Assembly (NCBI GenBank): GCA_022710725.1
Contig: JAKLGK010000004.1
Coordinates: 62,001 to 126,000 of the forward strand
Direction: 5' to 3'
DNA: 64,000 nt
From: Verrucomicrobiota bacterium
Lineage (GTDB): Bacteria > Verrucomicrobiota > Kiritimatiellia > CAIQIC01 > JAGNIJ01
Part shown: piece by piece, positions 49,489 through 50,697 of the stretch
Layout of the letters: every line of letters begins with the position of its first letter
Numbering within the stretch: the first letter of the stretch is position 1
Notes under the pieces: model-generated
What the model was told of the DNA's origin: nothing
The model's input: only the letters and a program-made list of their open reading frames with translations
The model's database searches: none
Translations under genes and position numbers: made by a program

Positions 49489-50394
49489 ATGATGGAACGC
49501 TTTCTGCGGGACATTTTCTGGGTCACCGGTCCGCTCACCGGGGCGGAGTTGCTGGACCGCGCGCGGGCCGACGTGCTGCCCCTCTGGCGCGAGTGCCGGC
49601 GGATCCCGGCGCTGCGCCGGATCCTCTTCGGGCGGCGTTATCTTCGTCTTGATCGCGCCGTCGAGGGCTACGCCCGCTTGTCCCCTTCCATCCGGCGCGA
49701 GTTCCTGACGTACACGGTCCTGGGGCTCAAGGAACAGTCCACGCTGGCGGCGAAGAAAGCGGAGGACCTGCGCCGCGCCGCGGCGGCGATCAGCCAGGAT
49801 AAAATCAACCTCGCCCGGGAAATCGCCGTCTCCGCCATGGCCGAGTTGAACGACCGCGCGCTGGAGGAGCGGTTCTGCTTCCTGATCGCCGGCGACGTGA
49901 TCTACAACATGGCCCACCGCGTGCCGCGCCCCGAGAAGAGCACCGGCGAGATGGTCCGCGGGTCCGACCTCGATATCGTGGTCGTGGCGGCGGACGACCT
50001 GCCCGCGGACGCGATCCAGGCCCTGGACGCCCTCATCTACAAGAAAAAGCATTACCTGCTCGTCCACCCCGACTACCGCGAGGAGGTGGACTATCTCATC
50101 AAGGATTTCCGCCGCGTCCGGGAGCAGACGGACTTCGACACGTTCGAGTCCATGGTCGCCTGCAAGATCATGGACGAGAGCCGCCTGCTGTACGGCAGCC
50201 GCGCGCTGTTCCAGCAGGTCAAGGGCCTGCTGCACGAGCGCCAGGTCCCCCAGCGCCTCCTCCACCTGGAAGCCGCGGCCGTCAAGGAGCGCGAGGAAGC
50301 CGAACAGGCCCTCCTGGCCCCCGAGGAGCGCTTCAGCGCGGAGCTGTACAACCACCTTTTCTTCACCCAGGAAGAGGGCGAGGAAATTTACTAG
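49489..50394 (+). CDS. Nucleotidyltransferase-fold protein of unknown function
   Basis: A 301-residue cytoplasmic protein. The central EMVRGSDLDIVVV contains the GSxLD pattern of the nucleotidyltransferase superfamily, preceded by FCFLIAGDVIYNMAHRV. The N-terminal and C-terminal parts are helical and charged. I cannot name a substrate, and the second acidic residue of the usual triad is not obvious. The stop is only two bases before the first hairpin of the array at 50397-50697. A weak AGGGC precedes ATG 49489. Confidence 0.6.
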   Translation: MMERFLRDIFWVTGPLTGAELLDRARADVLPLWRECRRIPALRRILFGRRYLRLDRAVEGYARLSPSIRREFLTYTVLGLKEQSTLAAKKAEDLRRAAAAISQDKINLAREIAVSAMAELNDRALEERFCFLIAGDVIYNMAHRVPRPEKSTGEMVRGSDLDIVVVAADDLPADAIQALDALIYKKKHYLLVHPDYREEVDYLIKDFRRVREQTDFDTFESMVACKIMDESRLLYGSRALFQQVKGLLHERQVPQRLLHLEAAAVKEREEAEQALLAPEERFSAELYNHLFFTQEEGEEIY

Positions 50395-50396
50395 CC

Positions 50397-50423
50397 CGGA
50401 TAATGCGCGGCGCGCATTATCCG
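50397..50423 (+). terminator. Hairpin directly after the 49489 gene
   Basis: CGGATAATGCGC, loop GGC and the exact complement form a 12-bp stem starting two bases after the stop codon. It is well placed to end the transcript, but no T-tract follows. Confidence 0.5.
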
Positions 50424-50663
50424 CCCAAAGGGCCGTGATGTGCCCGCGTTGCGGGCACAAACGGGGTTTGCCACGTTCGTTTTGTCGAATCCTTGATTCG
50501 ACAAAACGTCACGTCTTCTGGCACGCGAATTGCCTATGCAATTCGCGTGCCCAGAAGCGCTTATTGCGTGAGCGTCTCTACGCTCATGCAATAAGCGGGC
50601 TAGAGCGGTTTGCGAAAAAGCGTAGCCGCCAGCGTGAGCGGGCGGCACGGGAAAGCCGAGTAT

Positions 50664-50697
50664 AACGTGGCCGCGCCGTTACCGGCGCGGCCACGTT
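50664..50697. terminator. 15-bp hairpin between converging genes
   Basis: AACGTGGCCGCGCCG, loop TTAC and the exact complement. It lies 13 bases past the 3' end of the nagB-like gene (minus) and also ends the array on the plus side, so it could terminate in both directions. The T-tract is short. Confidence 0.5.

Follow-up and report, generated by a model that had tools for sequence, protein, structure and literature searches.

The window, a stretch of 64,000 nucleotides from a Verrucomicrobiota genome, carries between two converging genes a run of hairpins at positions 50397-50697, which raises the question what kind of sequence such a run represents. The initial annotation saw here an array of seven hairpins with unrelated stems and considered a structured non-coding RNA, a strand-selective recombination or replication site or a mosaic palindromic element. 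All seven stems were recovered by an inverted-repeat search at essentially the places given there, together with an extra 3-bp CCC/GGG hairpin (Table 1). The folding energy of the 341-nt interval as single-stranded DNA is -138.7 kcal/mol compared to -66.0 +/- 4.0 kcal/mol for dinucleotide-preserving shuffles (z = -18), the z value is -14.8 when the interval is folded as RNA, and the 205-bp element described below reaches z = -17 by itself. The presence of the hairpins is confirmed, at a level far above that expected by chance.

A repeated element with TIRs and target duplications

As a unit, however, the seven-hairpin array did not hold. Searching the genome with the whole interval resolved it into one repeated element, 50395-50599, with 12 copies in its own genome, and a remainder with hairpins six and seven, which lies outside all other copies; beyond query position ~229 of 341 no genome match was obtained except the inverted self-match of the last hairpin. 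The 12 copies, which were assembled by hand from the whole-genome search, comprise six short ones (the window copy, L002/L104, L003/L105, L004/L106, L005/L107 and L015/L103), four long ones with an additional cassette between the CCC/GGG hairpin and H2 (L006, L007, L008, L010) and two with deletions (L011, L012). Five of them show 96-97% identity to the window copy, or a higher one among themselves. The body of the element consists of five large hairpins plus the small CCC/GGG hairpin within 205 bp, and this array is enclosed by a stem of the duplications and TIR ends.

Table 1. Features of the window copy and its surroundings, with four further loci discussed in the text
Feature	Position	Strand	Basis or remark
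Left 4-bp target duplication CTAG	50391..50394	.	Sequence; matching direct duplications in 24/31 copies
Stop codon TAG of the upstream gene	50392-50394		Inside left CTAG duplication
Probable IS1380-type MITE, short form, 205 bp	50395..50599	+	12 genome copies; element-free orthologous locus in G001
Left TIR CCCGGATAATGCGCGGC, 5' arm of H1	50395..50411	+	Copies compared with IS1380 ends
Hairpin H1, left TIR folded on its own inverted copy	50397..50423	+	Inverted-repeat search
Small hairpin CCC-AAA-GGG	50424..50432	+	In the long form, extra hairpin cassette right behind
Hairpin H2	50439..50459	+	Inverted-repeat search
Conserved linker AACGGGGTTTGCCACGTT, consensus GGGGCTTGCCACGTT	50460..50477	+	Same in diverged copy L103
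Hairpin H3	50478..50508	+	Inverted-repeat search; in L103 wholly replaced yet paired
Hairpin H4, one bulged base	50516..50556	+	Inverted-repeat search; stem 50520-50551 lengthened by 6 bp
Hairpin H5, right TIR folded on its own inverted copy	50558..50597	+	Inverted-repeat search; arm match 94%
Right TIR CCCGCTTATTGCATGAG, 3' arm of H5	50583..50599	-	
Right 4-bp target duplication CTAG	50600..50603	.	
Outside the element: imperfect hairpin 50625-50646 and single-copy 15-bp hairpin 50664-50697	50625..50697	.	Inverted-repeat search; arm match 89% in 50625-50646
RAYT-like Y1 gene with its own inverted repeats, unrelated to the MITE (L101)	G000:C1:350200-354000		
RAYT-like Y1 gene with its own inverted repeats, unrelated to the MITE (L102)	G000:C12:154500-158000		
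Long-form cassette in foreign repeat (L238)	G002:C213:1142-1186		
Long-form cassette in foreign repeat (L239)	G001:C255:7649-7690		

The TIRs are 16-17 bp long and of the kind CCCG(n)nTATTGCAYGAG. The left end of the window copy is CCCGGATAATGCGCG and its right end, reversed, CCCGCTTATTGCATGAGC; its TIRs are more diverged than those of copy L038, where CCCGGATATTGCACGA and CCCGCATATTGCACGA agree at 14 of 16 positions. Stems one and five each hold one TIR (CCCGGATAATGCGCG and CCCGCTTATTGCATGAG, respectively), so that the description of the stems as unrelated fails for this pair. The tetranucleotides flanking the element are identical in 24 of 31 copies and mostly CTAG, the duplication being a 4-bp YTRG in general. 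As CTAG is its own reverse complement, it is the matching of the non-palindromic pairs TTAG/TTAG, CTGG/CTGG and ATAG/ATAG that identifies the target duplications as direct repeats. Among the 31 copies from five genomes, all ten clear non-palindromic duplications read TTAG, CTGG or ATAG in element orientation; this one-way asymmetry suggests that the two element ends are treated as non-equivalent.

Furthermore, the sister species G001 has the same gene pair in an element-free state, with the two genes ~50 bases apart. Its orthologous locus reads GAGATCTACTAAACG as against GAAATTTACTAG-element-CTAG in the own genome, and it has ACTAAACG where the own genome has ACTAG-element-CTAG, the site not being base-exact with these diverged flanks. 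At a second locus, L104, the element is also missing in G001, again with diverged flanks and not base-exact, and for a third locus, L112, no syntenic region was found in G001. The hairpins outside the element lie beside the converging nagB-like gene (match to Pfam Glucosamine_iso), at its 3' end. On the other side, the upstream stop codon is separated from the first stem by two bases, as had been stated. The call of a nucleotidyltransferase fold for this upstream gene turned out to be weak: the ORF (49489-50391) has sub-threshold Pfam scores only, 16.7 bits for NTP_transf_2 (cut-off 21) and 18 for PilB3_N (cut-off 27). It adjoins the nagB-like gene in G001, G002 and G003, too.

IS1380 elements as the probable motor

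The element is short, lacks a transposase gene and occurs in dispersed copies (112-256 bp, plus ~35 bp) that have TIRs and a target duplication, and its TIRs are shared with an autonomous element. The latter was found by means of the end-derived pattern TAGCCCGNNTWTTGCRYGAG: G091 contains a 1558-bp element with the same TIR type, a CTAG duplication and a 446-aa transposase of the IS1380 family (NF033539, 402 bits at a cut-off of 180; PF13701, 552 bits). IS1380 copies with related TIRs and duplications are also present in G001, G023, G053 and G062. Those of G001 have the ends CCCGGATTATTCATGAAC and the duplication CTAG, and those of G023 the ends CCTGAATAATTCATCAAC with CTAA or TTAG duplicated; the ends of the diverged copy L103 resemble the G001 type (right end CCCGGTTTATTCATGAACG). 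Because complete IS1380 elements in relatives bear such TIRs and duplications, an IS1380 transposase is the probable motor of the MITE. We therefore consider it most likely, with a probability of about 0.88, that 50395-50599 is a non-autonomous MITE that a DDE transposase of the IS1380 family mobilizes in trans.

Full-length copies in G091, G062, G053 and G001 share with the MITE the TIR type and the 4-bp YTAR duplication. In contrast to these elements of about 1.6 kb, the MITE comprises 205 bp and has no DDE transposase gene, which was found only in relatives, in other genomes; moreover, it contains an internal hairpin array and hairpin-folded TIRs, whereas the ends of the G091 element are not hairpin-folded. 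That no transposase lies near the hairpins, as had been noted from the start, was borne out; the probable motor would act in trans. Against this motor speaks that the own genome, although 94.8% complete, yielded no IS1380 transposase; its motor would then have disappeared, sit in unassembled sequence or have been present only for a time. Likewise, the MITE accompanies IS1380 in only about a quarter of the searched related genomes that have the latter, and some MITE-carrying genomes have no IS1380. On contig C1 of G037, from the same class, at least 16 IS1380 copies are present (16 scored out of 224 first-look candidates), most of which are broken by an in-frame TAG or TGA.

The transposase would recognize the TIRs and use YTAR tetranucleotides for cutting and pasting, in a way similar to the use of TTAA by the piggyBac transposase. 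IS1380 transposases have been described as distantly related to piggyBac (PMC10140906), for which seamless excision has been demonstrated (PMC7351741). Common to both are a 4-bp target duplication and CCC-type ends, but piggyBac is eukaryotic and targets TTAA; a shared chemistry is suggested by analogy.

In the 346 genomes of the class, 79 occurrences of the TIR pattern were counted, compared to 13 of the reversed control, and the matches are spread over 29 genomes, some by chance. When 388 genomes from the phylum were sampled, the type-B core (see below) turned up in four, each of which belongs to this class, and a scan of named genomes with the type-A right-hairpin pattern gave four stretches on contigs of three MAGs.

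Conserved fold, stop codons and possible role

The initial annotation had regarded its reading as refuted if pairing were not conserved in relatives. Pairing was assessed on stems aligned by hand and with RNAalifold. Across eight divergent type-A copies aligned in this manual way, 560 of 584 stem cells are paired, whereas 2000 shuffles, which do not preserve the relatedness of the copies, gave a mean of 494 and a maximum of 513; double changes number 51 as against 12 in the shuffles. Between L104 and L103, 28 of 68 stem pairs differ, 25 of which are changed on both sides with pairing kept (counted with hand-set stems, as MAFFT misaligned L103), and the linkers AAACGGGGCTTGCCACGTTCG and CGTCACGTC are identical. 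A second subfamily, types B and C, is present in G001, G003, G045, G069, G091 and G344 and follows the same plan of TIR hairpin, small hairpin, inner closed multi-branch domain, hairpin and TIR hairpin, with compensatory change in 34 of 68 consensus pairs. As judged from these alignments, the multi-branched fold is kept by compensatory change. For type B a pseudoknot was also considered by eye; a nested fold fits types B and C.

The target sequence YTAG (CTAG or TTAG) includes the stop codon TAG. The end of an ORF of 250 or more codons falls exactly on the duplication at 17 of 62 oriented ends, compared to 15 of 200 control YTAG sites drawn from the fetched loci (p = 1e-4); against the small window-only control (4 of 34 YTAG sites) the excess is not significant (p = 0.12). 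After GC-frame filtering, a coding-like ORF has its stop codon directly next to the element in 17 of 31 copies, all these rates being indicative and not exact, with crude ORF calling and copies within one genome that are not fully independent. Among 28 copies with genes on both sides, 14 lie between convergent, 13 between tandem and one between divergent genes, and the autonomous element of G091 is likewise placed behind an ORF end. Insertion at CTAG or TTAG would duplicate the stop codon and leave the upstream protein intact, and surviving copies would gather at gene ends. We propose that the bias towards stop codons and convergent genes arises because the duplicated stop spares the upstream protein.

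What the hairpins do there is a matter of weighing. It is possible, if short of probable, that the fold is under selection, the hairpin array behind the stop forming a harmless or useful 3' end for the neighbours, for example by end protection or as a two-way terminator. We prefer this reading, in which hairpins at gene ends may be tolerated or useful as two-way 3' ends. A search for intrinsic terminators (GC-rich hairpin with T-run) gave one weak site compared to 0.6 expected by chance, with no T-run standing out, which speaks against a terminator of this type. More far-reaching, and to be taken as speculative, is the idea that a class-specific lineage of IS1380 mini-transposons became portable, structure-conserved 3'-end modules, in which the stop is recreated by the duplication, a two-way hairpin array stands behind it, the fold is selected and stems and TIR types are exchanged to suit IS1380 motors.

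The main rival takes the same MITE to be functionless. The stems would then stay perfect and seem to covary because of template switching within the hairpins, by which one arm is copied onto the other, and not because of selection. This could well be so, with somewhat less than even odds. Double changes predominate in the type-A stems (51 double, 16 one-sided and 24 broken cells), G-T and A-C mismatch columns are roughly equal (14 and 10), a near parity that gives no sign of selection on the RNA of one strand, and the older copies L111 and L113 decay. However, template switching would not protect hairpin order and linkers, which are conserved between L104 and L103 and also within types B and C over six genomes. 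Self-correction of this kind and a selected 3' end are not mutually exclusive.

A mobile gene for a structured ncRNA or ribozyme, with the RNA as the functional product, would account for the strong covariation, the conserved linkers and the conserved plan of closing stem and multi-branch; yet the wobble signature of one strand is absent, the orientation relative to genes is variable and no promoter-like site stands out in 500 bases, so that we regard this as unlikely. Rfam covariance models found only a tRNA elsewhere in the window, and all matches of the element lie below the gathering scores. Very improbable is a REP-like origin, in which a Y1 (HUH) transposase (RAYT or IS200/IS605 type) would mobilize the element in single-stranded form by recognizing its end hairpins and cutting at a fixed tetranucleotide. 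Each end does have a hairpin beside a tetranucleotide, and Y1 transposases are common in the class (81 of 96 relatives, five matches in the own genome), but the tetranucleotides on the two sides agree also in copies with a sequence other than CTAG, as in a target duplication, and these TIRs are found on IS1380 elements; moreover, G074 with its many related copies has no Y1 match, and both RAYT genes inspected from the own genome are unlinked to the MITE and carry their own inverted repeats of ~30-35 bp without a MITE match. An attC or integron array was set aside because TIRs, target duplication and IS1380 explain the anatomy, and the hairpin run can be accounted for without a strand-selective site for recombination or replication.

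Relation to known repeats and variant forms

The element is not an ordinary REP/BIME cluster, as had rightly been said, but a 205-bp multi-hairpin with TIRs and CTAG target duplication; the term mosaic palindromic element came near the mark and missed its multicopy and probably mobile nature. REP and other GTAG- or CGTC-tagged palindromic repeats are found mainly downstream of genes and between converging genes (PMC3733652). The MITE resembles them in being palindromic and in its placement at gene ends. In contrast to these single or paired tagged palindromes of 20-40 bp, it is much longer and multi-hairpin, has TIRs with target duplication and shows no linkage to the RAYT genes at the two loci examined. 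With other bacterial MITEs such as Correia elements and TIMEs it shares the short, non-autonomous form, TIRs with target duplication and dispersed, mainly intergenic copies, and hairpin-folding MITEs are already known (PMC4853749, PMC4133298, PMC3542288). It differs from them by its probable IS1380 motor, by several separate hairpins instead of one long snap-back hairpin, by a fold kept with compensatory change and by many copies exactly on a stop codon. Both MITEs and IS1380 are already known; in the open-access papers searched, there was no description of an IS1380-derived MITE or of a MITE with conserved multi-hairpin fold and stop-codon placement.

The hairpin arrays of related uncultured Verrucomicrobiota genomes can probably be explained as mobile elements and not as unlinked structures. 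They would represent a mini-transposon family whose secondary structure outlasts its sequence and for which the target site YTAG makes stop codons safe landing places. Should the hairpins have an effect on transcript ends, such elements would make up a naturally occurring collection of movable gene ends; should the palindromes instead correct themselves, the many copies would form a natural record of hairpin-templated mutation. Comparison of copies can separate the two.

Element lengths range from about 35 bp over 112 bp (L143) up to 256 bp. The minimal elements of ~35 bp (L114, L149, L173) consist of two TIRs back to back with 4-bp duplications and are probably transposable palindromes that could be taken for REP sequences. 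G074 contains many copies of an ~85-bp element, with just partial IS1380 matches in this genome; at the loci L049 and L053 their boundary is the inner GGGGCTAG of the type-A linker, and their TIR is the variant CATATTTCRCGC. The cassette of the long form (GCGTGAG..TCGCG..CGCGGTCACGCGA type) also turns up within palindromic repeats of other, unrelated kinds in G001 and G002, which suggests that hairpin modules are exchanged between repeat families.
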